IMG/VR virus record: IMGVR_UViG_3300006921_000177 | Location: 1-22,381 of that record | DNA length: 22,381 bases | Reading direction: 5' to 3' (one strand) | Source of the DNA: a virus | Shown: positions 1,275 to 19,795 of the stretch, piece by piece | Numbering within the stretch: position 1 is the stretch's first letter | Layout: every line of letters begins with the position of its first letter | Notes under the pieces: generated by a model | What the model was told of the DNA's origin: nothing | The model's database searches: none | The model's input: the letters and a program-made list of their open reading frames with translations, nothing else | Position numbers and translations under genes: made by a program

Positions 1275-1304
1275 TATATAATAGAAAAGAGTTGAATTTA
1301 TTTG
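1275..1304 (-). promoter_or_regulatory. Bipartite promoter-like element, copy 1
   Basis: On the minus strand CAAATAAA (1297-1304) is followed after 11 nt by TCTATTATATA (1275-1285), 5 nt before the ATG at 1269. It is one of five copies with fixed spacing. It lies downstream of the terminator at 1321-1349, so the gene at 781-1269 needs a promoter here. Confidence 0.65.
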
Positions 1305-1320
1305 TATTCAGTTAGTATTA

Positions 1321-1349
1321 AAAAGAAAAAGGTGAGCAAAAGCCCACCC
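1321..1349 (-). terminator. Rho-independent terminator after the tail-tube-like gene
   Basis: On the minus strand GGTGGGC, loop TTTT, GCTCACC form a 7-bp stem with one G-U pair, followed at once by TTTTTCTTTTT. It lies 27 nt after the stop of the gene at 1376-1957. It is the best intrinsic terminator in the window, GC-rich in otherwise AT-rich DNA. Confidence 0.85.
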
Positions 1350-1375
1350 CAATCAAGAAAATATGATAAAGACTA

Positions 1376-1957
1376 CTAAGAAGTAACGATAGCTCCCATT
1401 GTAAATGCTGCATTGTCAAATGGTGTTGTAGTGTAGTCAGCAACTAAACTCATTGGCTCTTGCTCCATTCCGTCAAGTGTCCATTCGTAACCATTCCTGT
1501 CTGCCCAAGCTGCTCCTGAAGCGTTTGTACCTGCGTTCAAGTGCATACCATTCTTAACACCTAATGCAAGAATAACATTATTTCCACTTGCTAATCTTTG
1601 ATTTAATTCTGCAAAAACGACAAGCTTAGATTGTGCTAATGCTTTTAATTCGTTCTGATCTTCTTTTGTCAATTTGTTTAATTGAATTGTAATAGAAGGA
1701 GTGTAGTATATCGTTCCTGCGGTTGTATCGCCGTTTATTGTTTCAGTAACACTTGCAGTTCCTTTTGGTAAAGAATATCTGTAAAGTCTCTTATCTGCCA
1801 TTTCAATATCTGTTACTTGCCCTGAAGCTACTACTATTCCTGTTCCATCTGTAGGTGCATCAAATTCATCATAAACACCAAAAAAAACATTTTTTACACC
1901 TCCTAATGATCTAGAGCAATCAAGCCCTCTACCTTTTGTAATTACTGTACACGCCAT
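1376..1957 (-). CDS. Putative major tail (tube) protein (193 aa)
   Basis: The protein starts MACTVITKGRGLDCSRSLGG and is made of beta-strand stretches around one helical segment, LNKLTKEDQNELKALAQSKL. It ends with an aromatic-rich part holding NGYEWTLDGMEQEPM. Size, composition and a place just after the major capsid gene fit a tail tube subunit, which polymerises around the tape measure, but a head-decoration protein cannot be excluded. The start is fixed by the A-rich tract before ATG GCG. A hairpin separates it from the capsid gene and a strong terminator follows it, so it can be read at a level different from both neighbours, as expected for a high-copy protein. Confidence 0.55.
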   Translation of the reverse strand: MACTVITKGRGLDCSRSLGGVKNVFFGVYDEFDAPTDGTGIVVASGQVTDIEMADKRLYRYSLPKGTASVTETINGDTTAGTIYYTPSITIQLNKLTKEDQNELKALAQSKLVVFAELNQRLASGNNVILALGVKNGMHLNAGTNASGAAWADRNGYEWTLDGMEQEPMSLVADYTTTPFDNAAFTMGAIVTS

Positions 1958-1979
1958 TTTTTTTATTTTAAAAGGTTAA

Positions 1980-2003
1980 GGGAATGGTTTTTACACCACT
2001 CCC
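1980..2003 (-). terminator. Hairpin between capsid and next gene, weak terminator or attenuator
   Basis: On the minus strand GGGAGTGG, 8-nt loop, CCATTCCC form an 8-bp stem with one G-U pair, followed by TTAACCTTTT. The T-tract is imperfect, so partial read-through into the gene at 1376-1957 or 3'-end protection of capsid mRNA is as likely as full termination. Confidence 0.5.
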
Positions 2004-2017
2004 GTTTATTTGTTTTA

Positions 2018-2947
2018 TTATGATACTAATACTGTATCAGCTCCAATACCTACTTGTACACCCCCTGAATATTTAGCAACTACACGAATATTGTCGCTCC
2101 CATCAAGAGTACTCATATCCATTAATCTGATACTAGTTTGGTCACCTAAAAGGTCAGTTCCAAAGAATAAATTAGATTTTTCTGCTGCTACTAAAACATC
2201 ATTAGACATTCCTGTACAAACGGCAATTTTTATTCCTTCAAATACAGCGTCATAATCTCTGTTCATAGAATAAGCGTTTACATATCCTAAAGTAGAAATA
2301 GCAGAAATGTATAATCTGTAAGATTTTGGACTCATATAGATATATAAATCTTCTTTTGTATATACTGCTGTAGGAATAGCTGCTGTACACGCTTGTAAGT
2401 TAGCGATAATATTAGTAGCGTCATAAGCAGTACCTGCACCCCCTGCGTTAGCTACATCATTAACTGTTGCATCTGCAACTAAAATTCCAACTGCTGCTGC
2501 CGAAGTTACAAAACCTGCCCATTCTCCTGCTGCATTTGGTGCTGCTGTATCTCCATTCCATATAGTGTTTTCTGTATCATCTGCAATAATATCAGCTAAA
2601 TAAGAAATTACATAGTCATCAAAACTTGCAGGTGGTGGTGCGCCTGCTCCTGCTCTCATTTGCATTGCTTCCCAAGAATCTAACAAGTCGCCCTTGCATA
2701 AATCTGTATTGATTTGTCTATTAGAAGGTGTAAGCACATTTTCTGTAAGAGCTAATGTACCTGCTCCTGTAAAATTACAAGACGCTGCCATTACCATACC
2801 TGTTGCATTCATCTTCTGTATATTACTTTTAAATTTGATATTTTCAATCATTGTCAAGTACTCCATAGAAGTAGCTTGTCTTAACGCTTGAGATACATAG
2901 AACCCTGCGCTTTTACCCGAATAGTTCGAATTTGTTGTTAAAGCCAT
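2018..2947 (-). CDS. Major capsid protein (309 aa)
   Basis: This is the main shell protein of the phage head. It starts MALTTNSNYSGKSAGFYVSQ, then has the N-terminal helix ALRQATSMEYLTMIENIKFK common in Bacteroidota phage capsid proteins, a central Ala/Gly-rich part, and a C-terminal beta part ending GGVQVGIGADTVLVS. Length (309 aa) fits an HK97-fold subunit without a delta domain, since a separate scaffold-like gene lies just upstream. The protease, scaffold, capsid gene order supports the call strongly. The start is set by a long A-rich tract (about 20 nt) before ATG GCT, expected for a highly expressed gene, and a hairpin follows the stop. Family assignment is from pattern and order, not from a search. 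Confidence 0.82.
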   Translation of the reverse strand: MALTTNSNYSGKSAGFYVSQALRQATSMEYLTMIENIKFKSNIQKMNATGMVMAASCNFTGAGTLALTENVLTPSNRQINTDLCKGDLLDSWEAMQMRAGAGAPPPASFDDYVISYLADIIADDTENTIWNGDTAAPNAAGEWAGFVTSAAAVGILVADATVNDVANAGGAGTAYDATNIIANLQACTAAIPTAVYTKEDLYIYMSPKSYRLYISAISTLGYVNAYSMNRDYDAVFEGIKIAVCTGMSNDVLVAAEKSNLFFGTDLLGDQTSIRLMDMSTLDGSDNIRVVAKYSGGVQVGIGADTVLVS

Positions 2948-2960
2948 TTTTTTTTATTTT

Positions 2961-3650
2961 TTAATTATTATATAAGTTATACAAGTATTTCTCTTGTTTT
3001 GTCATTCTTCTTAAATCTTGCTTAGATAGTGTTCTCTTTTCTGAGCTGAATTTATTTGTATTTAAAGATGTATCAGCAGGTTTCTTAGCTAATTCTTCTT
3101 TTAATTTTTCATTCTCAGCTTTTAATTCTTCTACTGAAAATTCAACTACTTCTGTAGTCTTAGTTGTTACTGTTCTAGGGTTTTCTGAAGGCTCAGTAGT
3201 TTCTACTTCAGTAGTTTCTTCTGACAATTCTTCTTCTCCTTCTGCACCTCCTTTCATTTCTTCAATAACACTTTCTAAATACTCAATTCTTTTTTCTAAT
3301 GCTTCATATTTAGATGTTTCTTCTTCTTCCTTTGCTTCTACTTCTTCAGCTGCTTCAACTACTTCTTCTTCAGCAGGAGCTTCTTCTTCTTCAACTACTT
3401 CAGCTTCACCAACTGTAGCAATAACACCTGCTTCTTCAACTACAAAAGTTACACCATCTTCTGTTTCATACTCACCGATTGGTAGTTCAATAGTCGTTCC
3501 GTCCTCAGTTAAAACTGAAATATCTACACCCTCAGCTAAAGCATCTGCTGTTGATACGATAATAGTTCCGTCCACTAATTTTGCTTGTACTTCAAACTTT
3601 ACTTCTGAAGAAAGTCCGAGTGCTTTTAAGATTTGTTCTTTTAGTTCCAT
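2961..3650 (-). CDS. Scaffold-like acidic coiled-coil protein (229 aa)
   Basis: Scaffold proteins guide capsid assembly and are removed by the prohead protease. This protein starts MELKEQILKALGLSSEVKFE, has a beta-rich part to about residue 80, then a long Glu/Ala-rich acidic stretch (residues about 80-115), a coiled coil (ALEKRIEYLESVIEEMKGG), a Thr/Glu linker, a second coiled coil (SVEELKAENEKLKEELAKK) and a basic tail (KRTLSKQDLRRMTKQEKYLYN). This layout, with a positive C-terminus that can bind the inside of the shell, is typical of scaffolds. It lies between protease and capsid genes. A promoter-like element sits 2 nt before its ATG, suggesting a leaderless message for scaffold and capsid. 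Confidence 0.72.
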   Translation of the reverse strand: MELKEQILKALGLSSEVKFEVQAKLVDGTIIVSTADALAEGVDISVLTEDGTTIELPIGEYETEDGVTFVVEEAGVIATVGEAEVVEEEEAPAEEEVVEAAEEVEAKEEEETSKYEALEKRIEYLESVIEEMKGGAEGEEELSEETTEVETTEPSENPRTVTTKTTEVVEFSVEELKAENEKLKEELAKKPADTSLNTNKFSSEKRTLSKQDLRRMTKQEKYLYNLYNN

Positions 3651-3652
3651 AG

Positions 3653-3682
3653 TATATAATAGATTAATATTTAGTTTGTTTG
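3653..3682 (-). promoter_or_regulatory. Bipartite promoter-like element, copy 2
   Basis: On the minus strand CAAACAAA (3675-3682) is followed after 11 nt by TCTATTATATA (3653-3663), only 2 nt before the ATG at 3650. The hexamer before CAAA (ATCAAA) is identical to copy 3. It would drive the scaffold and capsid genes. Confidence 0.65.
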
Positions 3683-3702
3683 ATTTTTAGATTTTATTAG
3701 GT

Positions 3703-4680
3703 TTACAGTATTTTCTTTAACATTTCATTCCAACCATTTAAAGCATTTTGATTTTCAAACATTTCATTAATCAATTTATTTGCTTCATTATATCCTTTCA
3801 CATCATTTACAGGTACTCCTAATTCTTTTGCTTGAACCTCTATTTTATTCAAGATTTTATCACTTTCTTTCTTCAATGTACCTGCTTGTCTTATAGCACC
3901 TCTAGTAATTCCTTCTGCATCAGAAATTACTTTTTTTACTTCTTTAAATTGAGTTTCTGCTTTTTCTCCCCATTTAAAACCGTCCTCTTGTAAGCCAATT
4001 ATTCTTTTAGCGTCACTAACTATATTTTTTAAATCATCAGCAACTCCCAACTCAACCTTCTCAGCCTTTAGTTCAGTTTTGTTTTCTCTTATTAGCTCGT
4101 TTAAAGCACTTAGTATTTGTTCTTGTGTTGGTTGTTTCTTGTTCATTTGTTCAAATTTATTAGTAAAGTAGCCTTCAATTGAAAGACCTTTCAAAGTTCC
4201 ATCTTTAATTTTGCTCCAAACCTCATCATTTTCAATTTTCATTTTCACGAACCAAGTGCCGATTGGCAAGTCAAAGCCGTATAAATTAGACTTATCTTGT
4301 TCACCTTCCTTAATCCAACTTTCAATTGTAAGAACTCCTGAAACTCTATCAGTATGTTGCTCAGTTGCTTTATGGTGATTGTTATGTTTTAAATATAAAT
4401 GTGAAGCCTTTTTTACAGTTTCTTTAGAAAAGTAAACATAATATTCACTATCAGTATTAGGGTCATATCGGAATATTTGTTTGTTAGGAATCAAAGCAGG
4501 AGAAATTAATTCTCTTTTTTCTTCATCTACCTTTGCAAAAGTTAAATTGTTCTTCTCTTTTGAGAAATAAACAAAGTCTTGTTCTATTGCAGGTGAAGTA
4601 ACTAAACTAATTGCGTCAATTGTTAATGCTTCGTTTTCATCACTTATTACTAGCTCTACGATACTTGTTTTCTTTTTCAT
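3703..4680 (-). CDS. Prohead serine protease, XkdF-like, with extra C-terminal domain (325 aa)
   Basis: This enzyme would cleave scaffold and capsid proteins during head maturation. Residues 1-172 match the XkdF-type phage protease pattern: SLVTSPAIEQDF near the start, YFSKETVKKASHLYLKHN followed by a His cluster (102-103 and 109), LPIGTWFVKMKIENDEVW, and GLSIEGYF with the candidate nucleophile Ser167. A flexible segment follows, and residues about 205-325 form a helical domain that resembles the neighbouring 127-aa protein. That domain may be an attached scaffold or targeting part. The ATG overlaps the stop of a 25-aa reading frame (ATGA), so translation is probably coupled to it. An AGGAGG lies 24 nt upstream, too far to serve as a ribosome site. 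Confidence 0.82.
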   Translation of the reverse strand: MKKKTSIVELVISDENEALTIDAISLVTSPAIEQDFVYFSKEKNNLTFAKVDEEKRELISPALIPNKQIFRYDPNTDSEYYVYFSKETVKKASHLYLKHNNHHKATEQHTDRVSGVLTIESWIKEGEQDKSNLYGFDLPIGTWFVKMKIENDEVWSKIKDGTLKGLSIEGYFTNKFEQMNKKQPTQEQILSALNELIRENKTELKAEKVELGVADDLKNIVSDAKRIIGLQEDGFKWGEKAETQFKEVKKVISDAEGITRGAIRQAGTLKKESDKILNKIEVQAKELGVPVNDVKGYNEANKLINEMFENQNALNGWNEMLKKIL

Positions 4681-4754
4681 ATTAAATGTTCTAAAGTTCC
4701 GTTACCTCCTATTCTAATTATTGTATCAATCGTTTCTTCTGTAAATGGTTTCAT
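4677..4754 (-). CDS. 25-aa peptide coupled to the prohead protease
   Basis: This short frame was found by hand. It reads MKPFTEETIDTIIRIGG and then NGTLEHLI, and its TGA overlaps the ATG of the protease gene (ATGA). Only 21 nt separate it from the stop of the 127-aa gene. It could be a leader peptide that sets the translation of the protease, or a small real protein; I do not recognise it. On the minus strand TATATTTG (plus 4768-4775) lies 13 nt before the ATG and matches the Bacteroidota -7 consensus TAnnTTTG, but I see no good -33 TTG. Confidence 0.55.
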   Translation of the reverse strand: MKPFTEETIDTIIRIGGNGTLEHLI

Positions 4755-4775
4755 AATATATTTTTTACAAATATA

Positions 4776-5159
4776 CTATTTTATAGAAGAAGTTGCTTTT
4801 AAAATCTCTCTTATTGTTTCTCCTGAACTTAAAGCCGTTTTATAAAGTCTTTCAATATCATTAGGAACATCTACCCCTAATTCTTTTGCTGCTCTTTGAA
4901 CTTTTGCCATTTCGTCTATTACTTTTTTTAGCCACTTTTCTCCTGATTTACTTGCACTTCTTGCTTCTGTTGCTGCTTTAACAACTGTATTGTATTGTCT
5001 TTGAGCTTCTGATGAAAAATCGGCTGCTGTTATTACAATTTTTTTTAAGTCTTGAAGCATATCTAACTCAATTCTTTCAACTTTACTTAAGTTAAATTCG
5101 TTTACTTCTTTTTCGTATTCTGCAAATGTTTTCTTTCCTATTGGTGTTGGCTTGTTCAT
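4776..5159 (-). CDS. Stand-alone paralogue of the protease C-terminal domain (127 aa)
   Basis: The protein is almost wholly helical, starting MNKPTPIGKKTFAEYEKEVN. It aligns by eye with the C-terminal domain of the prohead protease: VERIELDMLQDLKKIV (residues 27-42) against EKVELGVADDLKNIV (207-221), and AKELGVDVPND (91-101) against AKELGVPVND (284-293), with the spacing between the two blocks 14 residues shorter here. The two genes are adjacent, which suggests a local duplication or a split of a protease-scaffold fusion. A role in head assembly is inferred. A promoter-like element with a perfect 16-bp palindrome lies 29 nt before its ATG, so this gene probably opens the head-gene transcript. 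Confidence 0.65.
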   Translation of the reverse strand: MNKPTPIGKKTFAEYEKEVNEFNLSKVERIELDMLQDLKKIVITAADFSSEAQRQYNTVVKAATEARSASKSGEKWLKKVIDEMAKVQRAAKELGVDVPNDIERLYKTALSSGETIREILKATSSIK

Positions 5160-5187
5160 AATTTTAATTTAAGGTTGTAATTAAGGT

Positions 5188-5222
5188 TCTATTATATAAT
5201 AGATTATTTATTGCTTTATTTG
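5188..5222 (-). promoter_or_regulatory. Bipartite promoter-like element, copy 3, with palindrome
   Basis: On the minus strand CAAATAAA (5215-5222) is followed after 11 nt by TCTATTATATA (5193-5203). Here the second box extends into a perfect 16-bp palindrome, TCTATTATATAATAGA (5188-5203). The ATG at 5159 follows after 28 nt, the longest leader of the five copies. Confidence 0.65.
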
Positions 5223-5225
5223 ATT

Positions 5226-6872
5226 TTAGATTGTTGCCCTTCTTCTAATATTTGCTAATTGGTCTTGACTGTTTGACATTTCATCTGTTACTACAAATGC
5301 TTTAACAGGCTCAGGTGCTTGACCACCTCCTAATTCAAATGCTCCTGACATCATCTCAGGTGCAGGTGCAGAAGCTCCCGCTGTAGGTACAGAGCCACCA
5401 CTTGGAGCAGAACCACCTCCTCCATCTGTTGCTAAAATAGCTTTTACATTAGCTAAACCTGAAGCAATAGCTGCTCCTGCTGCAACACCACCTAAAACAG
5501 GACCTACTACAGGAATACCTGCCATAGAAGCATAAGCTGCTGTAGCACCTTTATAAGTATCTATTGTAGCTTGTGTAACAGCCATAGCTTTACCTGCTGC
5601 TGTTTCTTCACCTAATATCTTGACCATATTTCCTGCCGTTTGGCTCATAATATCTAATTGAGCTTCAGATGACATTTTAGCCCAAGTTTCTTTTTCCTTT
5701 TCGTACTTCTTTTTAATTGCTGATTGGTCGCTTTCAAACTTTTCAGTAATAGCAGTTGTATCTTCACCTGCTTTACGAGCCATTTCTATTTTTAAGTCAT
5801 AAGCTGTTTGAAGTTCTGCTAATTCTAAAGCCAAACCCTCTAATCCACTTAACAACAATTCTCTTTTTGTTTCTCCTAATTCTTTTTCTAATGATACTTG
5901 ATTAGTAAGTTGCTCTGACTGAAATCCTGTTATTTGTGCTTCTACTGCTTTTCTTTCATTAAGAGCTTCTGTTAAAGCTATAAGGTTTTCTTGACTTTGG
6001 TTTTTATTAAATTCAACTTGTGCTGCATTAACTTGTATATCAACTAGTTTCTGCATTTCAACTCCCTGCTCTTTTAGGACTTCACCTAACTTTGTATTTG
6101 CTTCTATTCTTTCTGCAAAAGTTTTAGTTTCATCATCTCTTACCTGTCTAAGTTTTTCAGCTTGTCTATCGTATTCTTCAATCAACCCCTGAACTTGTAC
6201 TTTAGCTAATTCAGCTGCTTTATTTAATTCTATTGTTGCTGTTGCTGCTTCAATAGTTGTTGAAACATAATTTTTAATAGTTTTGGCAACTTCTTCGTAA
6301 GATTTATCTACACCTGTAAATACATCTACTGTTTCTTTTCCTGCTTCTTTTATAGTTTCAAAAGCTGCACTAAATTCTCCTTGTATTAACTGACCAAAAG
6401 ATTTAGCAACTAATCCCATAACCTCTAAGGCTTGATTAAATCTGTCTATAAATGCGTCTTTAATAGTATCTCCAAGCTCCCTAATTTTTTCAGCAGGATT
6501 CTCAAACATATCTTTAAACCAACCTGTAACTTTTCCTACATTTCCTGATAAGAAACTAAACAGGTCGTTAAATGCTATACTTAAAGATTCCATAGCAATA
6601 CCAAAAAGGTCTACTACCCTTTGATTTTTACCTAATACTTCTTGAAAAATCTCAAAAGCTTTATTTAGTAAAAACACAACCCCTGAAGCTTTAGCTAAAG
6701 CCTTAAACCCAACTGTTAATTTCTTAACTCCACCTGCTGATTTTTTACTTGCTTCACCTACACCTTCTGTTTCTTTTCCTAATTTCTTGGTGCTTTTTGT
6801 AGCTTTATCAATACCCTCTGAAACTTCTCCTATGTTTGATTTTATTTCTGCTTCTATTATTTCTTTGCTCAT
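5226..6872 (-). CDS. Tail tape measure protein (548 aa)
   Basis: Tape measure proteins set tail length and pass into the host envelope during DNA entry. The N-terminal 60 residues are Lys/Gly-rich (SKEIIEAEIKSNIGEV, GEASKKSAGGVKKL); a hydrophobic helix region follows (ASGVVFLLNKAFEIFQEVLG), then long alpha-helical and coiled-coil stretches (residues about 170-420). A Gly/Ala-rich hydrophobic segment typical of tape measures comes next (IPVVGPVLGGVAAGAAIASG), and a Pro/Gly/Ser-rich C-terminus ends in IRRRATI. At about 0.15 nm per residue, 548 residues predict a tail of roughly 80 nm, which fits a short siphovirus tail. It starts 1 nt after the fibre-like gene ends, so the two are co-transcribed. 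Confidence 0.82.
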   Translation of the reverse strand: MSKEIIEAEIKSNIGEVSEGIDKATKSTKKLGKETEGVGEASKKSAGGVKKLTVGFKALAKASGVVFLLNKAFEIFQEVLGKNQRVVDLFGIAMESLSIAFNDLFSFLSGNVGKVTGWFKDMFENPAEKIRELGDTIKDAFIDRFNQALEVMGLVAKSFGQLIQGEFSAAFETIKEAGKETVDVFTGVDKSYEEVAKTIKNYVSTTIEAATATIELNKAAELAKVQVQGLIEEYDRQAEKLRQVRDDETKTFAERIEANTKLGEVLKEQGVEMQKLVDIQVNAAQVEFNKNQSQENLIALTEALNERKAVEAQITGFQSEQLTNQVSLEKELGETKRELLLSGLEGLALELAELQTAYDLKIEMARKAGEDTTAITEKFESDQSAIKKKYEKEKETWAKMSSEAQLDIMSQTAGNMVKILGEETAAGKAMAVTQATIDTYKGATAAYASMAGIPVVGPVLGGVAAGAAIASGLANVKAILATDGGGGSAPSGGSVPTAGASAPAPEMMSGAFELGGGQAPEPVKAFVVTDEMSNSQDQLANIRRRATI

Positions 6873-6873
6873 T

Positions 6874-7722
6874 TTAAAAGTCTATATTTGTTCTTAATTC
6901 GTGTAAGTAAATTGTTGCTGACCATAAGTTGTTTATATTATTTCTATCTGATACCTCTATTGTTACACTAGGTATTCCATCTGTTGTACTATCTACAATT
7001 GAGAAACTACCATTGACTCCAATTTTTGCAGTATTTCTTGTAACTCCTACATCAATCGTTATAGCTCCATTTCTATCTGTTTGTATAGCTCCTCTTTGCA
7101 ATCTATAACTAAAATTCCCTGCCGTTCCTGAAGAACCTCCTGTTTCTAATCTTGTTACATAAGCAGTATAGCCTACAATGCTATTTGTTTGTAAAGTAAT
7201 AAATTCACTTGTTATATTTTGTACTGTTAAATTAGTAGCTGTATTATCAGTAGTTGATCCACTTAATTGAACTTTTGAACTCTGAGCATAGCCTGACACT
7301 TCAGGAGTTCCAAAGAATCCACCACCTAAAACAACTTCTCCCTGTCTTATTATCTTGCCCATTTTACCTCCTACTATTGAGCCGTTGTTTATCCCTACTG
7401 ACGCTTCACCTTCTTGTCCTGTAATTAAAATATTGCGATTATCTCCTTTTGTTATATTACCCTCACCATTTAAAAGTGAGTTTTCTGTTCCTACTAAAGC
7501 TTCACCACCCCTTACATTGTTTGATTTATTATTAAGTAGTGCATTTACTTTATTACTATATTTGAAAGCAGAACAAACTCCTAATGTCTTATCGTACTTA
7601 TAGCCATACGCTTCACATTGTAATTGATTAGGGGGGAAGTCGTGAGTACCATCAGTAAAAGTTACCTCACCAAGTCTATTCGTTTCTTTTGGTTTTACTT
7701 TAAATCCTTTTTTGTAATCCAT
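6874..7722 (-). CDS. Tail fibre-like protein with trimeric-head-type repeats (282 aa)
   Basis: The N-terminus (MDYKKGFKVKPKETNRLGEV) is followed by a short part with two cysteines (residues 35 and 50). Then come irregular repeats of the G-N/E-x-x-x-G type (GGEALVGTENSLLNGEGN, GQEGEASVGINNGSIVGG), as in left-handed beta-roll heads of trimeric adhesins and phage fibres. The last 110 residues form a beta-rich domain (LQRGAIQTDRNGAITIDVGV to the end). This suggests a trimeric tail-tip or fibre protein involved in host contact. Its ATG shares one base with the TAA of the 933-aa gene, so the two are tightly linked. The fibre role is inferred from repeats and location. Confidence 0.6.
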   Translation of the reverse strand: MDYKKGFKVKPKETNRLGEVTFTDGTHDFPPNQLQCEAYGYKYDKTLGVCSAFKYSNKVNALLNNKSNNVRGGEALVGTENSLLNGEGNITKGDNRNILITGQEGEASVGINNGSIVGGKMGKIIRQGEVVLGGGFFGTPEVSGYAQSSKVQLSGSTTDNTATNLTVQNITSEFITLQTNSIVGYTAYVTRLETGGSSGTAGNFSYRLQRGAIQTDRNGAITIDVGVTRNTAKIGVNGSFSIVDSTTDGIPSVTIEVSDRNNINNLWSATIYLHELRTNIDF

Positions 7723-10523: not shown

Positions 10524-11935
10524 TATACAGACTGTGTTCTTTGGTTCTTAGTTCTTTCTACTTCAAAAGTATATTGAATTAGTTTATCATTTGCTATTGT
10601 CTTTCTAGTATGACTTGAAGTTGTTAGGGTTACAGGCTGCACATATCTTCTTAAAGTACCACCTACATCTGATTGATAGCCATTTAAAATATAAACTTCA
10701 GGACTGTTTATTAGTTGCTCTAGCCAAACAGATTCGTCTTGTGAAATATAATCTGTATTCATTTTTATTTTCTCTTTTGTGTCTACTTTATAATTCTTAC
10801 GACCTCCACTAGAGCCGTGTAATTTATATGTAGCTTCATTCCAAGTACCACTAAGTTGAGTATAAGTTTTTCTATTAGTACTAAGACTTCTAACTGACTT
10901 TTTATTGAATGTATAGTAATCCCAAGTTCCGTGTTTGTTCAGCCAAGTTAATCTGATACCCTCATAACCTCTTGCGTCATCACATATTACATTAAATCTA
11001 TATGTTTGTCCAATTGTTGTAGAAGCACTTTCAGTTTTAACAGTATAATAAGATACATTAGCTTTATTTGTATTCCAAGCAGAATAACCTGCTCCTGTAA
11101 AGTTTGCAGGGAAGCAACCAATAAAAACTATTTTATTCATAGACAAAGTAGCTGTTGCTGAACTTGTAACAGCTACATCAAATGTTCCTAAACTTGCTCC
11201 TGAGCTATTAAACATTTCCACCTCAGCATTTACAATTTTAGGACAAATAAAAGAAGAAAAAATATCTAAATCTGATAAGAACGGCAAAGTTCCATAATCA
11301 GTTATTCTAACATATTGCGTTAAAGGTGCGTCTGATAAAGCACCTCCACTAACTCCTGTTACTAGACCTACTGTTGTATATCCTGCTGCGTCTAAATCGT
11401 AACCAAAATTACTACCACTTGTTGTTAATACATCTATATAATCTACAACTCCATTGTATAAAATATACTGCTGAGTACTTAGACTCATAGAAGCATCTTC
11501 TGCTACAAAGTTTGGAAAAGCTGCGTCTGCTCCTTCGTACTCTATTGCAAAATCTATTTGAAACCACTTTACTGAATTAACACCTAAAGCAGATTTATCT
11601 ACTGTATGTAGACTATGATAATTTGTACTACTATAAGCAGCACCTTTAAAAGTAGAAATAACACCACCTGCGTCTGTACCTGTAAAATCAGGAGTTACAT
11701 AATTTTTAAGAATTGTACTGAAATCAAATATACCTACTTGTGCTGCATTGGGTGTAGTTTTAAAAACTCCTATCTGAACGGGTGTAGCACTATCACTATA
11801 AACATTTACATAAGCTACATATTTTACTTTTGATTTATCAGCAACTATTGTTGTATCTTCCTTTATTACAAATATAATATCTTGCTCTGCTGCTACTGTG
11901 TTGTAAAGAGGTTTCTGTTGTAATTGTAATGCCAT
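10523..11935 (-). CDS. Large tail/baseplate structural protein (470 aa)
   Basis: The protein starts MALQLQQKPLYNTVAAEQDI and is beta-rich with many aromatic and Thr/Ser residues. Recognisable stretches are DFSTILKNYVTPDF, CDDARGYEGIRLTWLNKHGT followed by WDYYTFNKK, and the C-terminal EVERTKNQRTQSV. I take it as a distal-tail or baseplate component, since it precedes the hub-like gene and both lie upstream of the tape measure. The exact family is not recognised. The start has an A-rich tract before ATG GCA, one of five such virion starts, so it is probably highly translated. Only 5 nt separate it from the gp10-like gene upstream. Confidence 0.62.
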   Translation of the reverse strand: MALQLQQKPLYNTVAAEQDIIFVIKEDTTIVADKSKVKYVAYVNVYSDSATPVQIGVFKTTPNAAQVGIFDFSTILKNYVTPDFTGTDAGGVISTFKGAAYSSTNYHSLHTVDKSALGVNSVKWFQIDFAIEYEGADAAFPNFVAEDASMSLSTQQYILYNGVVDYIDVLTTSGSNFGYDLDAAGYTTVGLVTGVSGGALSDAPLTQYVRITDYGTLPFLSDLDIFSSFICPKIVNAEVEMFNSSGASLGTFDVAVTSSATATLSMNKIVFIGCFPANFTGAGYSAWNTNKANVSYYTVKTESASTTIGQTYRFNVICDDARGYEGIRLTWLNKHGTWDYYTFNKKSVRSLSTNRKTYTQLSGTWNEATYKLHGSSGGRKNYKVDTKEKIKMNTDYISQDESVWLEQLINSPEVYILNGYQSDVGGTLRRYVQPVTLTTSSHTRKTIANDKLIQYTFEVERTKNQRTQSV

Positions 11936-11940
11936 TTTTT

Positions 11941-12468
11941 TTATTTTACTGTTGTTAAATTTTCTATTATATCTTCTTTCACGCTTTTTAACATTTCACT
12001 TCCAAATTGTTTTAATCCAAGACCTAAAGGTTTTTGAAAAAAGCTTATACCTTGCTTTCCGTATAAGTAAATCTTACGAGCTATAAGGAACTTTAAAGAC
12101 TTCCTAGACAAGAACTTCCCTTTAGCATCACGAGGTGCAATACCCCTTCTTACAATCCATTGGTCAAGACCTTTAGTTAATCCTCCATCTCTTGTTTTAC
12201 CATAGCTAAAAGGTGATGTCTTTTTCTGCCCTTTATAATCTACAAAACTTCTTTTCTTTTTTGTTCCTGAAACTCCTTTGTCAATAAACTTTCCATAGTC
12301 TAGCATACTGAACTCTACACTATATCCTTCTTGTGTTTTTACTACATTGTACTTAACACTATTTAATAGCTTACCTGTAACAACTTTATCTCTCCTTTTA
12401 AGGTTTCCCTTAGCACGATTGACTACTTGTTTACCAAAACTATTTAGATAGCGTTCTAAGTTCTTCAT
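11941..12468 (-). CDS. HK97-gp10-like tail completion / neck protein (175 aa)
   Basis: Proteins of the HK97 gp10 family join the head connector to the tail. Seen here: an N-terminal helix (MKNLERYLNSFGKQVVNRAK), the RDKVVTGKLLNSVKYNV pattern of the family (TG.L..Si.y.v), EGYSVEFSMLDYGKFIDKGV followed by SGTKKK, a basic middle part, and a helical C-terminus. It is very basic overall. The length is slightly above the family norm (about 110-150 aa) because of an inserted stretch around residues 100-130. It starts on the last base of the stop of the gene at 12468-12917, so translation is coupled. The neighbourhood of tail genes agrees with this role. Confidence 0.62.
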   Translation of the reverse strand: MKNLERYLNSFGKQVVNRAKGNLKRRDKVVTGKLLNSVKYNVVKTQEGYSVEFSMLDYGKFIDKGVSGTKKKRSFVDYKGQKKTSPFSYGKTRDGGLTKGLDQWIVRRGIAPRDAKGKFLSRKSLKFLIARKIYLYGKQGISFFQKPLGLGLKQFGSEMLKSVKEDIIENLTTVK

Positions 12469-12917
12469 TATACACTAGCAACAAAGATTTCTACATCACA
12501 ATCTTCAGAAGCTCTTGGCTTAACTTGAATACTTGTTATATCTTCTAATGTAGGGAAGTTAGGTGTTGTATCTGCTTCTGCTATTACTGCTGTATCTGCT
12601 TGACATAAGATATGTGAAGTTCCTCCTGTCATTACAACTTGATAGTTAGTATTTTCTGTTACAATTGCTATATCCAAAACTCCTGTTGTGCTTAGGTTTG
12701 TTACTCTAATATACTTACAATTTTGTAAGTCTAAAGCTCCTGCACTACCATATACATTACTGTTGAATGTTGCTATTGTAGTTGTTTGAGAATGAGGACA
12801 AGTTACTAATCTTTCAAAAGTATCTGTAATATCTGATACAGTTAGTGTGTTTGTTGAACCTCTTTTTGCATTATTTAAAATAATACTTTCGGTTACTGTT
12901 ACTGTTAAATCTGCCAT
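12468..12917 (-). CDS. Virion structural protein, beta-rich (149 aa)
   Basis: The protein starts MADLTVTVTESIILNNAKRG and is a Thr/Val-rich beta protein (SQTTTIATFNSNVYGSAGAL, NCKYIRVTNLSTTGVLDIAI). It has no enzyme motif and no membrane segment. Such proteins are common as small virion or head-tail joining components, but I do not recognise a named family. The A-rich tract before ATG GCA marks it as one of the five strongly initiated virion genes. It lies 1 nt after the 116-aa gene and shares one base with the start of the gp10-like gene, so it belongs to the same operon. Confidence 0.62.
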   Translation of the reverse strand: MADLTVTVTESIILNNAKRGSTNTLTVSDITDTFERLVTCPHSQTTTIATFNSNVYGSAGALDLQNCKYIRVTNLSTTGVLDIAIVTENTNYQVVMTGGTSHILCQADTAVIAEADTTPNFPTLEDITSIQVKPRASEDCDVEIFVASV

Positions 12918-12918
12918 T

Positions 12919-13269
12919 TTATTTTTTATTTATTTGTTTTAATTTATTAATTGCCCATTCTATTCCTGATGTACCACCCCAAGCATCCCACATTATACCA
13001 CCACAACCTTCTGAGTAAGGTACGTCTTTATGCTGTTGGTGTCTTTTAAATGATGCCATACGAGCAATAGTGTCTCTACTTATATTTTCTCTATTTGCTA
13101 ATTGTGCGCTTCTTGTCCAACCAACTCTTGTTCCACAATCACTTCCATTTTCCTCTTTCCATTTCCTAGCTCTTTTAGCATTGTTAGTAGCACTTTTTGG
13201 ATAATCATTGTAAGTTTCTAGCTTTACACTTATTTCTTCTAACTTATCTAATAATTCATCATATTTCAT
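12919..13269 (-). CDS. Phage protein with conserved VGW-R-A-L domain (116 aa)
   Basis: Residues about 27-110 carry a pattern seen in many phages, either as a small protein or at the end of a protease or head protein: NNAKRARKWKEENGSDCGT, RVGWTRSAQLANRENISRDT, IARMASFKRHQQHK and GGIMWDAWGGTSGIEWA. The family function is unknown to me; it is often found near head and packaging genes. The N-terminal 25 residues form a short helix (YDELLDKLEEISVKLE). Two cysteines (about 44 and 89) do not make a clear zinc site. It lies between connector-like genes, so a structural or assembly role is likely. The start is the only good ATG, 15 nt after the upstream stop. Confidence 0.6.
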   Translation of the reverse strand: MKYDELLDKLEEISVKLETYNDYPKSATNNAKRARKWKEENGSDCGTRVGWTRSAQLANRENISRDTIARMASFKRHQQHKDVPYSEGCGGIMWDAWGGTSGIEWAINKLKQINKK

Positions 13270-13284
13270 ATCTTAATATTTTAT

Positions 13285-13788
13285 TTAAACTACAGGTATT
13301 GTGCAAGTCTGAAAGTCATTCTCAGCTTCTACTGAAATTGAGAATACAAAACCTGTTACATCATTGTCAAATCGTTCTGTAAAAGGATTTAAAGTTTCTC
13401 CTACTGAACTGAAATAGATAGGTACATTAATATCGTCCATAGCTTGTGATTGGTATTTACTATGTCTTAACATTCCTATTATATCAACTGAATTACTAAG
13501 GCAATCTGACAATACTTCTTTTTCATTTGTTTTATTAACTGCTGTTGAAGTAGTCCAATCATCTTTTATACTTACTAAATCCATTATAAAGATCTGAAAG
13601 TTAAATGTTAAAGAACTTTCATTAGCTTGAACGCTTGTTGGATTGATGTGCATTAAAGGATATTTTGTATTCTTTTCCAAGTCTACATCATAAATATCGC
13701 CTGTTGTTACTGTTGCTATTTGTTGGTGCTTATCTCCTAGCTCTGCAATTACATCAATTACATTCTGATATGTTTTATTGTTAATCAT
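13285..13788 (-). CDS. Putative tail terminator / minor tail protein (167 aa)
   Basis: The protein starts MINNKTYQNVIDVIAELGDK and has alpha helix then beta strands (NTKYPLMHINPTSVQ, LTFNFQIFIMDLVSI), a helical part (LSDCLSNSVDIIGMLRHSKY) and a final beta strand region. This order resembles small tail-completion proteins, but the match is only by general shape. Its start overlaps by 8 nt the stop of the -1 frame extension at 13781-14032. This means the gene is coupled to the frameshift product, not to the frame-0 product, which ends 123 nt before. That supports translation of the extension. Function is inferred. Confidence 0.5.
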   Translation of the reverse strand: MINNKTYQNVIDVIAELGDKHQQIATVTTGDIYDVDLEKNTKYPLMHINPTSVQANESSLTFNFQIFIMDLVSIKDDWTTSTAVNKTNEKEVLSDCLSNSVDIIGMLRHSKYQSQAMDDINVPIYFSSVGETLNPFTERFDNDVTGFVFSISVEAENDFQTCTIPVV

Positions 13789-14032
13789 TTCTATTTACTG
13801 TTTTAGTATCGTTCAAATCTGTTTCATAACTCAACCAAGTTAAGCACTCATAAAGATTGAGTTTTGTTATTTTTTCTAAGTTTACTATTTCACCATTTGT
13901 TAGTCTATACATTACACCGAACCAAGACCATTTGTTTGCAAAGTCCTCGTCTGCGTTTCCTCCACTATCTTCTCCGTCTGTTCCATTAAATATGATGGCA
14001 TAGTCAGCAATAGTTTTTTCACGAAATGCCAA
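13781..14032 (-). CDS. -1 frameshift extension of the tail chaperone gene (GT-type, 83 codons)
   Basis: This open frame has no ATG at its start; its first codon in the open stretch is TTG (14032), directly at the slippery run. Entered by a -1 shift from the upstream gene it gives 174 + 83 = 257 residues, joined as VFF-LAFREKTIADYA. The sequence is protein-like (NKWSWFGVMYRLTNGEIVNL, LYECLTWLSYETDLND) and remains open to 13781, where it overlaps the next gene by 8 nt. Such G/GT pairs are known in lambda and many siphoviruses, where the longer form binds the tape measure and tube proteins. Here the role is inferred from arrangement. An independent start at the TTG is possible but less likely. 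Confidence 0.7.
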   Translation of the reverse strand: MAFREKTIADYAIIFNGTDGEDSGGNADEDFANKWSWFGVMYRLTNGEIVNLEKITKLNLYECLTWLSYETDLNDTKTVNRND

Positions 14033-14553
14033 AAAAAAACCAACGCACCCTGTACATCTTCTGCTTTCATCTGTTGCATTTCTCCTGCCCTAAGCCGTAA
14101 ATCTCCATCATACGCTTGTATTGAATAAAGTCCTTTTTTCTTTTCTACTACAGGTCTGTACAATATTGCCATTATTTCAGCTAAGTTATTTTCTATACCA
14201 TCTTTTATCATAACCTCTAAGTCAGCAAATTCACCTAAAGTAATATCTGATAAGTCAGGGTGGAAGCCATACTCTACACCATCAATTTCAATTAGGTTTT
14301 TAAGAGTTGTATCTGCCTTTGCTTGAAGCTCTGATATTTTACCCATAATACCAACTACATCACCTAATGAAAGTTGCGATACTAATTTTCTAGGAATATC
14401 TGACATTGAAGTTATAGTTTCAAAAGCTTCTTCACTTTTTGTTGTTTCTTCTAAAGCTATAAGTTCTGCCCACTTTTCAAGAGTTACATCTGACCAACTA
14501 TCAATCAAATTAAATGTTTCTTGCTTACCTTCCTTTTTTATTTTGACTTTCAT
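13912..14553 (-). CDS. Tail assembly chaperone-like protein, frame-0 product (213 aa)
   Basis: The protein starts MKVKIKKEGKQETFNLIDSW and is mostly helical (SDVTLEKWAELIALEE, LSDITLGEFADLEVMIKDGI). It has the segment LAEIMAILYRPVVEKKKGLY and the final helix ALVFFWHFVKKLLLTMPSYL. This composition fits the tail chaperone (G-like) proteins of siphoviruses; the LYRPV and ALVFFW parts are familiar from Bacteroidota phages. Codons 172-175 read GTT TTT TTT TGG, a run of nine T that permits a -1 slip. The frame-0 end extends 39 residues past the slip site, longer than usual. A promoter-like element lies 2 nt before the ATG, separating this tail block from the terminase genes. Confidence 0.65.
   Translation of the reverse strand: MKVKIKKEGKQETFNLIDSWSDVTLEKWAELIALEETTKSEEAFETITSMSDIPRKLVSQLSLGDVVGIMGKISELQAKADTTLKNLIEIDGVEYGFHPDLSDITLGEFADLEVMIKDGIENNLAEIMAILYRPVVEKKKGLYSIQAYDGDLRLRAGEMQQMKAEDVQGALVFFWHFVKKLLLTMPSYLMEQTEKIVEETQTRTLQTNGLGSV
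14031..14040 (-). other. Programmed -1 frameshift slippery site
   Basis: On the minus strand G GTT TTT TTT TGG contains nine T (14031-14039). After codon 174 a slip by one base gives TTG GCA TTT CGT and enters the 83-codon frame. The run permits full re-pairing of both tRNA in the -1 frame. I did not identify a stimulatory hairpin. Confidence 0.7.
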
Positions 14554-14555
14554 AC

Positions 14556-14585
14556 TATATAATAGAATTTTATTGTTTTTAGTTT
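14556..14585 (-). promoter_or_regulatory. Bipartite promoter-like element, copy 4
   Basis: On the minus strand AAACTAAA (14578-14585) is followed after 11 nt by TCTATTATATA (14556-14566), 2 nt before the ATG at 14553. The upstream box overlaps the terminase stop codon and is the least conserved of the five. Confidence 0.6.
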
Positions 14586-15795
14586 ACTGCACAAAATAAC
14601 GACCTGAGTTTGGATTGTCTAAGTGAAAAATTACATTGTAACGAACACCATCAATTGCGTGATTGTAATTATCTACATAAAGTTTAGAACCCTTATCAGC
14701 GTATATATAATTATTTAGCTCTTTGGCTATGTTTGTACTCTCAGGAGTTATAATTAATTCATAGTCTTGCATACGAGTTATCCCACTTTCAACAGTTCCT
14801 TTTTTTACAGGTTTTATGTTTACTCCTAAATGTTTAAGGTCTGCAATTAGTCTTGGTTCTGCTGAATCTGCTATGATAAGTTTATCACCTACTTTGTCTA
14901 ATATAATTTGAGCCAACTCATTTGACTTCAATCCGTTCTTATAGATATGTTCTTTTAAATATATCTTACGCTTCTTTTTATCAATAGCTACTTCTGTTAA
15001 GCTATCAGGGTCTACACTAAAACCAAAGTCCATTCCACAAGAAGTCTGTAGTCCATCAGGATTAAATTCACCTATACTCCAATTCTCAAAGACAACTCCT
15101 TCTGCTTTATCCAACCACCCTCCTAAGATTTTGTGCTGATACTTTTTAAAGTTCCTGTGCTTTATACTCTTAATACGCTCTAGGAAGCTCTGTGAGAGGT
15201 TTTCTATATTGTCTAGGTAGTTAGTATGTATATAGCATACATTGTCCTTAAAGCCATTAAAACCACCTTCTACACCTTTGTCCTCAAAAAACCTTTTATA
15301 TATCCAATGCTCTTTAGTTACAGGGTTTAATATTAATACTACTCTATTGTGTATATTCTTTTCCCTAATACTTAAATCAATTGTATCAAAGATATTCTCA
15401 TCAACTAATTCCTCAGCTTCATCTAATACCCAAGTGCTTATTCCCTGTAATGACTTTAGACTTGCTGTTTGATTTCCTGCTGAGGTTCTAATACCTCTAA
15501 ATAATATATCTGATTGATTGCTTGTATTTAATACTTCTGATTTATTAATACTAAATACATCATCAAATCCTAAAAGCCCTATCTTTTCCAAGAACTCAGG
15601 AATGATTGATAAGTGAGCTGAAGTCATAGTGTAACGAGTAAAGAGTATTCTTATCCCTTTAGTCATTGTAAGTAAAGTAAGAAAAACTGTAGCAGCAAAA
15701 GACTTTCCTGATCCTCTACCTCCTGTAATTATAAAGTACCTAGCGTCAGATGAAAATAATGGATTGTATTTCTTATTCAGTATCAGTTTCAACAA
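14584..15795 (-). CDS. terL: Terminase large subunit (403 aa)
   Basis: This ATPase-nuclease packages DNA into the prohead. The ATPase domain has Walker A GGRGSGKS (residues 25-32) and Walker B WVLDEAEE (Asp125, Glu126 as catalytic acid), with ILNPV near residue 157 as coupling motif. The nuclease domain shows three acidic positions: GMDFGFSVDPDS (Asp256), IIADSAEP (Asp310) and HAIDGVRY (Asp382). Length and pattern agree with the Terminase_3/XtmB type, about 400-430 aa. It overlaps the small subunit gene by 23 nt. All catalytic residues are present, so it appears intact. The next gene downstream is not a portal, which is unusual. Confidence 0.95.
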   Translation of the reverse strand: MLKLILNKKYNPLFSSDARYFIITGGRGSGKSFAATVFLTLLTMTKGIRILFTRYTMTSAHLSIIPEFLEKIGLLGFDDVFSINKSEVLNTSNQSDILFRGIRTSAGNQTASLKSLQGISTWVLDEAEELVDENIFDTIDLSIREKNIHNRVVLILNPVTKEHWIYKRFFEDKGVEGGFNGFKDNVCYIHTNYLDNIENLSQSFLERIKSIKHRNFKKYQHKILGGWLDKAEGVVFENWSIGEFNPDGLQTSCGMDFGFSVDPDSLTEVAIDKKKRKIYLKEHIYKNGLKSNELAQIILDKVGDKLIIADSAEPRLIADLKHLGVNIKPVKKGTVESGITRMQDYELIITPESTNIAKELNNYIYADKGSKLYVDNYNHAIDGVRYNVIFHLDNPNSGRYFVQ

Positions 15796-16126
15796 ATGTT
15801 ATAACAGGCATATTAATTGCTTTATCACCTGAAGTTATATCTACTCTGTTTGTTTCATTCCAACCTAACCTAGTCTTTGCAGCGTGTATTACAACTGATG
15901 GTACTTTATCCTTTACACATTCATAATATTTAGACTTAATAAAATCTTGTTGTATGTTTTCTATTTCTTCAACCTTAGCTGCAAATTCCTCATCTTCTTT
16001 TAGCCACTTATAAAAGTTTGTTCTGCTTAGGTCGGTTGCTTTTAAAGCAGTTGTTATTACTCCTAATGAACTTTCTAAAGCTTTGAGTAATCTCTCTTTG
16101 TTAATCTTTGTTCTATTCTGTTCCAT
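15773..16126 (-). CDS. terS: Terminase small subunit (117 aa)
   Basis: The small subunit recognises the packaging site on phage DNA and hands it to the large subunit. Residues about 8-42 form a helix-turn-helix (ERLLKALESSLGVITTALKA, TDLSRTNFYKWLKEDEEF). A helical oligomerisation part follows (VEEIENIQQDFIKSKYYECV), then the VIHAAKTRLGWNETN stretch seen in many small terminases, and a short beta tail (INMPVITFVETDTE) that may contact the large subunit. It overlaps both the methyltransferase (14 nt) and terL (23 nt), so it is a real member of this operon. Length is within the usual range for the family. Confidence 0.85.
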   Translation of the reverse strand: MEQNRTKINKERLLKALESSLGVITTALKATDLSRTNFYKWLKEDEEFAAKVEEIENIQQDFIKSKYYECVKDKVPSVVIHAAKTRLGWNETNRVDITSGDKAINMPVITFVETDTE

Positions 16127-17600
16127 TCTTTATTGCTTTTTGTCCTGTAAATTGTTCCCATCTTTCTATTATAACATCACAATACTTTTCGTCTAATTCC
16201 ATTCCGTAACATTTTCTTTTAAGTTTCTCTGCTGCTATTAGTGTTGAGCCACTTCCAAGAAAAAAATCTAAAATAATTTCATTTTTTTCACTACTACTTT
16301 TTATTACTCTTTCACATAAAGGAATTGGTTTTGGTGTAGCGTGTCCTCCCTCGTTTCCTTTTCTTATATGTCGGTCAAAGTGCCATACATTGTTAAAATT
16401 ATCGTGTGTATTATTAAAGTATGCTCTTGTTCCGTAAAAATCTTTTTTTAATTCTTCATATTCTTTTTTTAATTCTTCATATTCTTTTTTTAATCCTTCT
16501 GTATTTTTTGTTTTTAAATACTTTCTTAAATCATTATAGTTTTTTTCTGTTGGAAAAGTCCACTGTGATTTACTCCACCAATGATTTACAGTTCTTCCGT
16601 CTTTATACCCTAAAGCAGTAGCGATTTTTTTATCACTTTCATTAAATTTTTTTATTTCTTTTTCTAAATATGTTCTTATTGGTTCCCACTTGTCAAAATA
16701 ATTATCTGCATTATTATTAAAACCCTGAACTCCACACATAACAAATAAACATTTTTCGTCTGCTATTGCATAGCTTCTTGTGTTATCAGAATTTTGACCC
16801 TGACCGTTTCCCTTATCCCAAGTAATAAGATTTCTAAAAGTTGCTTTTTGTTCTTTTATATATGGTTTTAATATTTCTGAATAAATATCCATAAGAGGTT
16901 CATCTATACCCCAACAGTAAAAACTTCCGTTATCTTTTAAGTATGTAAATTGTAAAGTTATCCATTCTTTGTTAAAATTCAATAAGTCAGAATAATTAAG
17001 ATTATCATTTAACACTCCGTCATTTTCTTTCTTCATTCCATAAGGTGGGTCATTGTGTGCTAAGTCTGCTTTTTCCCCATTCATTAGTTTCTCTACATCA
17101 TCTGAGCTTGTGCTATCTCCACACATTATTCTATGCTCTCCTAGTTGCCAAATATCACCACGCTTTACTTTGCTTTCTTTTACTTCAGGTATTTCATCAT
17201 CTTCTATTAGTCCTGCTTCAGCTATTTTATCATCTTCATTTTCCCATACATCTAAACCCCATTCAGCAAGTTGTACGCTATCCCATTCATTAGCTAACAT
17301 ATCCCATTCCCATTCTCCAAACCCTACATTGTCTTTAACTATAAATTCTTTCTTTTGTTCTTCAGTAAGTCCTTCTGCTACTTCAATCCATACTTCTTTT
17401 AGTCCTGCATCTTTACTTGCCTTCAATCTCATATTGCCACCAAGCACCATCATATCTTCATCAACTACAATAGGTCTTAGCTTTAACATCTCAGGAAAAT
17501 CCTGTATTGACTTCACTAGCTTTTTAAATTTATCGTTTTTTATTATTCTAGGATTGTCAGGGTTTCCCTTTACTTTACTTATCTTAACTTGTTGTTTCAT
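16113..17600 (-). CDS. ParB/Srx-like domain fused to beta-class DNA methyltransferase (495 aa)
   Basis: This enzyme probably methylates an adenine or cytosine amino group in phage DNA to guard against host restriction. Residues 1-75 form a ParB/sulfiredoxin-like domain (GNPDNPRIIKNDKFKKLVKS, LGGNMRLKASKDAGLKEVWI). The methyltransferase has motif IV NDPPYG (about 183-188) and, after it, motif I FLGSGST (447-453) with the Glu of GMELDEKYC; the order IV before I is the beta class. Between them is a target-recognition region with a likely helix-turn-helix (ATALGYKDGRTVNHWWSKSQ) and a three-fold repeat of seven residues (KKEYEEL). No restriction enzyme gene lies nearby, so it is an orphan. A promoter-like element lies 15 nt before the ATG. 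Confidence 0.88.
   Translation of the reverse strand: MKQQVKISKVKGNPDNPRIIKNDKFKKLVKSIQDFPEMLKLRPIVVDEDMMVLGGNMRLKASKDAGLKEVWIEVAEGLTEEQKKEFIVKDNVGFGEWEWDMLANEWDSVQLAEWGLDVWENEDDKIAEAGLIEDDEIPEVKESKVKRGDIWQLGEHRIMCGDSTSSDDVEKLMNGEKADLAHNDPPYGMKKENDGVLNDNLNYSDLLNFNKEWITLQFTYLKDNGSFYCWGIDEPLMDIYSEILKPYIKEQKATFRNLITWDKGNGQGQNSDNTRSYAIADEKCLFVMCGVQGFNNNADNYFDKWEPIRTYLEKEIKKFNESDKKIATALGYKDGRTVNHWWSKSQWTFPTEKNYNDLRKYLKTKNTEGLKKEYEELKKEYEELKKDFYGTRAYFNNTHDNFNNVWHFDRHIRKGNEGGHATPKPIPLCERVIKSSSEKNEIILDFFLGSGSTLIAAEKLKRKCYGMELDEKYCDVIIERWEQFTGQKAIKNGTE
16441..16503 (-). repeat. Three tandem 21-bp units inside the methyltransferase gene
   Basis: The plus strand reads tctttttttaattcttcatat twice (16441-16461, 16462-16482), then a diverged third unit tctttttttaatccttctgta. 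The repeat keeps the frame and encodes KKEYEEL-type heptads in a coiled-coil linker of the target-recognition region. Confidence 0.85.
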
Positions 17601-17615
17601 AATGTAGTGTCTTAG

Positions 17616-17645
17616 TATATAATAGAATTTTTGTTTATTTATTTA
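17616..17645 (-). promoter_or_regulatory. Bipartite promoter-like element, copy 5
   Basis: On the minus strand TAAATAAA (17638-17645) is followed after 11 nt by TCTATTATATA (17616-17626), 15 nt before the ATG at 17600. It overlaps the stop of the zinc-ribbon gene and would drive methyltransferase, terS and terL. Confidence 0.62.
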
Positions 17646-18469: not shown

Positions 18470-18874
18470 TTAGCCCTTAGCATATTCATTATATAGTTTT
18501 TTTATACCATCAAAGCAAGTTGAAATACAAGAGCCACAATTAGTCCTGACATTGTAGTTTGTATTGTATATTGTGTTATATGTTTCAATCATCCTCTTTT
18601 TAGCTGCTTGGTCTTTTGCTCTGCCTGTTCTTAAGTCCTTCCACATATCTAATATCTCATCTACTATTTCCTGTGGTAAAGTATCAGGAGTTTCTATCTC
18701 AGTTGTCTTTTCCCATTTCTTCTGACTACAGCCCATTGGTGCTAGTCTTGCCTTGATTTTCATAAAACAGCCACAGTCCTTGCAAGTTCCTGTAGGTTTA
18801 AAATAATAAATACAACCCTTACAGATAGCTATTCTATCTTCATAGACTTCATTAGGTACAAAAAACTTATTCAA
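18470..18874 (-). CDS. Cysteine-rich zinc-binding protein, DUF6171-like (134 aa)
   Basis: The N-terminal half has the pattern CKGCIYYFKPTGTCKDCGCF followed by MKIKARLAPMGC, with Cys at about 19, 22, 31, 34, 36 and 49, as in small zinc-binding proteins that I associate with DUF6171. A helical middle follows (PQEIVDEILDMWKDLRTGRA) and a second Cys group at the end (NCGSCISTC). Function is unknown. The start codon appears to be TTG at 18874, overlapping the sigma-like gene stop by 8 nt (TTGAATAA); no in-frame ATG is found before the zinc site. The tight coupling to the sigma-like gene suggests the two act together, for example as partner or control of transcription, but this is inference. Confidence 0.62.
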   Translation of the reverse strand: MNKFFVPNEVYEDRIAICKGCIYYFKPTGTCKDCGCFMKIKARLAPMGCSQKKWEKTTEIETPDTLPQEIVDEILDMWKDLRTGRAKDQAAKKRMIETYNTIYNTNYNVRTNCGSCISTCFDGIKKLYNEYAKG

Positions 18875-19773: not shown

Positions 19774-19795
19774 ACGGCAAACTTATTAAAAAAGC

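Follow-up and report, generated by a model that had tools for sequence, protein, structure and literature searches.

What reads the five copies of a two-box, promoter-like element that stand before gene blocks of a virus genome, and do they represent a new kind of promoter? The window, by which we mean the whole stretch of DNA that was analysed, is a virus record of 22,381 bases with genes mostly on the minus strand: replication-type genes, NinG, a small sigma-like gene, a ParB/DNA methylase and the small and large terminase subunits (TerS and TerL), and also tail, prohead-protease-like, scaffold-like, capsid-like and further virion genes. Judging from the promoter type and the isolate relatives, the host is probably a member of the Bacteroidota. 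The original prediction had described an A-rich box, CAAAYAAA, placed 11 nt before the 11-mer TCTATTATATA, and had proposed an undescribed, phage-specific promoter class. The five elements are:

1275-1304, minus strand: putative late promoter 1, box CAAATAAA at 1297-1304, 11 nt, then TCTATTATATA at 1275-1285; ATG of the next gene at 1269.
3653-3682, minus strand: putative late promoter 2, box CAAACAAA at 3675-3682, 11 nt, then TCTATTATATA; ATG at 3650 (2 nt), scaffold-like/capsid block.
5193-5222, minus strand: putative late promoter 3, box CAAATAAA at 5215-5222, 11 nt, then TCTATTATATA; ATG at 5159 (33 nt), prohead-protease-like block.
14556-14585, minus strand: putative late promoter 4, box AAACTAAA at 14578-14585, which overlaps the TerL stop, 11 nt, then TCTATTATATA; ATG at 14553 (2 nt), tail block.
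17616-17645, minus strand: putative late promoter 5, box TAAATAAA at 17638-17645, 11 nt, then TCTATTATATA; ATG at 17600 (15 nt), ParB/DNA methylase-terminase block.

All five exact 11-mers are present on the coding (minus) strand where they had been placed; 0.014 copies are expected per strand, and 2000 dinucleotide shuffles of the window gave a maximum of one copy. The A-rich 8-mer ends exactly 11 nt upstream of the 11-mer at 5/5 sites, as had been claimed, and the distances to the ATG (5, 2, 33, 2 and 15 nt for promoters 1 to 5) agree with the reported range of 2-33 nt. The wording of the two boxes needed revision: an A-rich box is found at every site but literal CAAAYAAA at three of the five only, TMAAMYAAA fitting better, and the exact 11-mer understates the conserved core, which is longer (TCTATTATATANTA, usually with TT in front). 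The reported mismatch with the Bacteroidota housekeeping promoter was confirmed, as the sigma-A -7 box TAnnTTTG is absent from the late motif and is present before the transcription unit of the sigma-like gene. The ParB/DNA methylase frame contains short in-frame KKEYEEL repeats at 16435-16500.

The element is common in related phages: the two-box pattern alone retrieved at least 120 stretches from IMG/VR, many of them with more than one site. In relatives selected through TerL (768 kb), the 11-mer occurs 145 times on the coding strand and 4 times on the opposite strand, which is the enrichment before genes that a promoter had been expected to display; relatives chosen by the sigma protein gave 90 and 8 copies, respectively. 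Of the exact 11-mer sites followed by an ORF, 132 are non-redundant; the A-box lies at exactly 11 nt in 113 of these, and any other spacing is found at most six times. The refined consensus reads TMAAMYAAA-N11-TTTCTATTATATANTA and was drawn from 142 non-redundant places where the 9-mer core TCTATTATA precedes an ORF; the columns of the 9-mer are fixed by construction because it was the search seed, whereas no such constraint applied to the A-box, the TT beside it or the TA-N-TA that follows. Information sits in TMAAMYAAA (-20 to -12) and in TTTCTATTATATANTA, with nearly featureless, A+T-rich sequence between them. The distance from motif to ATG varies from 2 to >40 nt while the spacing between the two boxes is kept, which argues for a transcription signal.

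In near-complete relatives the motif precedes the same gene blocks, in line with the block-opening position originally described. In G002 all five sites precede the same genes as in the window, and there is no site before the replication genes; G004 has five sites before the same genes, its packaging block beginning at TerS, and G044 has four; the same genes are preceded in G014 and G015 by variants, TCTATATATAA among them. Seen from the window, the motif of promoter 1 also heads the same gene in G002, G004 and G044, and the same three genomes have sites syntenic to promoter 2. Promoter 3 is syntenic in G002 and has a counterpart with a variant -10 in G014, promoter 4, downstream of TerL, has a counterpart in 5/5 fully mapped relatives, and promoter 5 is syntenic in G002 and G044 and heads TerS where the ParB/DNA methylase gene is absent before it. 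In genomes with TerS as block leader (L182, L186, L191 and others) the A-box and the final codons of the gene before it overlap (CCAAATGAATA), so that the sequence is under promoter and coding constraint at once. A literature search, weak on subscription papers, found no account of the motif.

A candidate for the protein that recognises these sites is encoded in the window itself, in a two-gene unit with its own, different promoter-like box:

18867-19424, minus strand: gene for an ECF-like two-domain sigma factor, proposed reader of the five promoters (profile and fold matches).
19417-19773, minus strand: 118-aa ORF (ORF call), first gene of the sigma transcription unit.
19778-19785, minus strand: host-type -7 box TAAGTTTG (TAnnTTTG), 4 nt before the ATG at 19773 of the two-gene sigma unit.

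The protein of 185 aa has a weak match to Pfam Sigma70_r4 (19.4 bits, gathering cut-off 24.1) and sub-threshold matches to PHROG sigma-factor families. Its AlphaFold model, for which 38 relatives were used, consists of two helical domains and a disordered linker (about residues 90-119; mean pLDDT 77), and its closest folds are ECF sigmas. The best solved match in Foldseek is ECF sigma L of M. tuberculosis (6dv9, E 9.4e-4); E. coli sigma-E region 4 on -35 DNA (2h27) fits one part of 64 columns (TMt 0.78, 1.7 A), which is taken to be the C-terminal domain, and the disordered linker between the two domains keeps global TM-scores low (about 0.34). The protein thus has the layout of ECF (group IV) sigmas: sigma-2 and sigma-4 only, about 160-200 aa, and a flexible linker. 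The DNA motif by itself retrieved 35 contigs; the sigma is encoded in each of the 16 that reach 25 kb, although in one of them only a terminal piece of 26 residues is present at the edge of the contig. Fold and co-occurrence make this phage-encoded, ECF-like sigma the probable reader of the five promoters.

Tblastn of the sigma against isolate phages gave no match. GTDB yielded two matches only (L425 and L426); their contigs have the length of a phage and belong to MAGs that carry the labels Pseudooceanicola and Euryarchaeota, and both are probably phages that were mis-binned. One 31-kb IMG/VR contig (L020, G027) has two sigma-family frames (698-1252 and 29145-29705, encoding 185 and 192 aa), which may be two paralogues or result from an assembly join. 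Directly downstream of the window sigma, at 18470-18874 on the minus strand, lies a gene for a Cys-rich DUF6171 protein, a possible partner of RNA polymerase or sigma.

How is the sigma itself switched on? TAnnTTTG-N3-4-ATG, with a variable nn such as a host sigma-A box would have, heads the sigma unit in 72/75 relatives, and the distance from this host-type promoter to the sigma start is nearly constant (358-373 nt). The position of the box suggests that the host polymerase probably makes the phage sigma, which would then redirect the enzyme to the late promoters. In the transcription start site map of F. psychrophilum, TAnnTTTG lies at -12 to -5 (PMC9723704), which together with the 4-nt gap places the AUG of the sigma unit at +1. 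The arrangement (19774-19785 in the window, and in nearly all relatives) predicts a leaderless early mRNA; leaderless mRNAs are only 5.5% of those mapped in F. psychrophilum (PMC9723704). A further host-type box, TATATTTG, is found at 4768-4775 on the minus strand, within the late region between the gene starting at 5159 and the protease-like gene.

Some related phages have both a divergent homologue of the sigma and a different -10. The Nonlabens phages P12024S and P12024L (Inhavirus), with a TerL 63% identical to that of the window, have, immediately before TerL, a gene whose annotation names Sigma-70 region 2, and gp33 of P12024S passes Sigma70_r2 (25.2, cut-off 24). Their sigma is about 14% identical to that of the window; the two are linked by the position of the gene and by iterated profile searches, which arrive at 217 shared proteins whichever sigma set they start from. 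TCTATTATATA is absent from P12024S. In both phages the motif TAAAACAAA-N13-CGTTAATA precedes six genes, at 3031, 5412, 21280, 23961, 25201 and 26802 (P12024S coordinates), with a spacing of 12 at one of them, and a weaker version precedes the gene at 179; their record has no promoter annotation. Kin of P12024S carry the same TAAAACAAA/CGTTAATA motif, and the spacing to the -10 is about 2 nt longer in this clade than in the window clade. Overall, CGTTAATA, CGTTTATA and xGTTATAT are found as alternative -10s behind a similar A-rich box, and the site downstream of TerL reads CGTTTATA, TGTTTATA or AGTTATAT in other relatives.

We compared motif labels with phylogeny in 80 contigs that have a sigma, a TerL and a motif label; outside the window clade the labels come from few sites per contig, and their words were picked by eye after reading the sequences. 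On the sigma tree, which contains long branches, the labels require 3 changes, the fewest possible; on the TerL tree they require 4. The additional step comes from L391 and L398, whose TerL is nearly equally close to two groups (68-72% and 71-73% identity); in sigma, by contrast, they share 54-59% identity with one group and 16-22% with the other, and their motif is that of the sigma-close group. As the two trees are nearly congruent, co-divergence rests mainly on clade-level contrasts and this one discordant case, which, being a single contrast, is supportive but not proof that sigma and promoter diverged together. Riemerella phage RAP44 (TerL 46%) was left out, having no annotated sigma and looking temperate. 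The TerL match of OQ791282 (Shigella phage Henu10) has the same coordinates and identity as that of Riemerella phage PT15, and its host label looks doubtful.

Could the motif be read by a host ECF sigma that the phage exploits, with the phage sigma-like gene serving some other function? Flavobacteria have several ECF sigmas, and one F. psychrophilum motif whose -10 region includes a CGT box (PMC9723704) is similar to CGTTAATA of P12024S. However, the type of motif tracks the phage sigma clade, the phage sigma is present in 16/16 near-complete contigs that were retrieved via the motif alone, and the phage could rely on a host ECF only if that factor were active in every infection; we consider this explanation improbable. 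An operator, bound by a phage activator or repressor beside unseen host promoters, would be in agreement with a perfect 16-bp palindrome at one site (5188-5203). A sixth copy of TCTATTATATA, on the plus strand at 5188-5198, is the mirror half of this local palindrome (TCTATTATATAATAGA) and can be ruled out as a second site because the right arm is not conserved elsewhere: 17% of sites have the G that the palindrome would require at position 14. The palindromic operator is rejected on the same grounds, and the strict orientation (145:4), the fixed two-box layout and the fact that TAnnTTTG is not a recurring element at the five window starts make any operator quite unlikely.

A translation-initiation or mRNA 5'-end signal in place of a promoter could account for the many motifs that lie 2-6 nt from the AUG, in particular as Bacteroidota are without Shine-Dalgarno signals and favour A-rich leaders (PMC6847099). 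It is at odds with the distance to the ATG, which is not fixed although the internal spacing stays at 11, and with the restriction of the motif to block-leading genes; such a signal is very unlikely and was rejected. Finally, long exact motifs are typical of promoters of phage RNA polymerases, but PF00940 (T7-type RNA polymerase) was found neither in the window nor in 19 relatives or P12024S with a T7 positive control that was detected, which rejects a T7-type reader, and near-complete relatives of only about 27-32 kb speak against a multisubunit one, leaving a phage polymerase with next to no probability.

The reading that we hold with high confidence is that the motifs serve as late promoters in a tailed Bacteroidota phage with a small genome of about 29 kb and are read by the host core RNA polymerase with the phage ECF-like sigma encoded at 18867-19424. 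A late-promoter function is supported by strand bias, fixed spacing, variable ATG distance, block synteny and occurrence in hundreds of contigs. The sigma unit would be transcribed by the host RpoD holoenzyme from the TAnnTTTG promoter, as its sequence suggests, and the small sigma, with sigma-2 and sigma-4 only, would bind the host core polymerase. Sigma-4 would recognise the A-rich box TMAAMYAAA, and sigma-2 would melt and read the TCTATTATA core; the spacing is consistent with this. Two details are reminiscent of ECF promoters: some upstream boxes contain AAC, and the core of P12024S contains CGT. Transcription may start a few nucleotides downstream of the motif, often at or next to the AUG, in which case several late mRNAs would be nearly leaderless. 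Judging from gene content, the packaging, tail, head and last virion blocks would be switched on together, late in infection.

Of the proposal of an undescribed, phage-specific promoter class, the phage-specific late promoter is upheld by strand bias, spacing, synteny and conservation; the new category is not, as a probable phage ECF-like sigma as reader makes the system an instance of a known mechanism. Phage sigmas with cognate late promoters are already known from phiEco32 and 7-11, but a set with diversified specificities in Bacteroidota phages appears to be undescribed. We see even chances for a wider reading, namely that one family diversified a late ECF sigma into matched pairs (with TCTATTATA, CGTTAATA, CGTTTATA or xGTTATAT as the -10 and a similar A-rich box upstream) and that leaderless translation is the rule for its block-leading late genes, with many late mRNAs starting at or next to the AUG in hosts where this is rare. 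Bacteroidota phages are abundant in seawater and lakes, and their promoters and regulators are almost unmapped. The pairing of sigma and promoter would offer a testable cascade (host sigma, phage sigma, late genes) for a large family and would allow the annotation of late operons from sequence; key late genes may be carried by leaderless mRNAs, and the pairs could serve as expression tools in Bacteroidota, where standard ones fail.

The closest known systems are those of phiEco32 and 7-11 (Kuravirus-like), which have conserved low-copy phage promoters before structural genes and upstream genes on host promoters (PMC4331800), and whose sigma is assigned to the ECF group (PMC7881722). The window phage shares the ECF-type sigma, the oriented motif before structural and packaging blocks and the host promoters upstream: its motif is oriented and conserved, and the co-occurring sigma (16/16) is itself under a host-type promoter (72/75). 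Unlike the window phage, phiEco32 and 7-11 are gammaproteobacterial podophages with much larger genomes; their core motif is TGATGT plus TATA, whereas the window phage has a conserved upstream box at fixed spacing, and they have an anti-sigma, a protein that shuts off host transcription, whereas none was recognised in the window phage, whose sigma is flanked by ORFs of no assigned function. Flavobacterial host promoters are expected to share the host transcription machinery with those of the window phage. The P12024S -10 CGTTAATA resembles the CGT box of the flavobacterial ECF motif SM6 (PMC9723704), but the window-clade -10 TCTATTATATA matches neither sigma-A TAnnTTTG nor SM6, and its sigma is phage-encoded. 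P12024S and P12024L are like the window in having a sigma-like gene just upstream of TerL and a bipartite motif before several blocks, and differ in the -10 CGTTAATA, the spacing longer by about 2 nt and the divergent sigma. Gp55 of T4 is likewise a phage sigma that redirects the host RNA polymerase to late genes with an A+T-rich, -10-like sequence. Gp55 is without a DNA-binding region 4 and needs gp33 and gp45, and T4 late promoters are without an upstream box; the window system, in contrast, has both sigma-4 and an upstream box.
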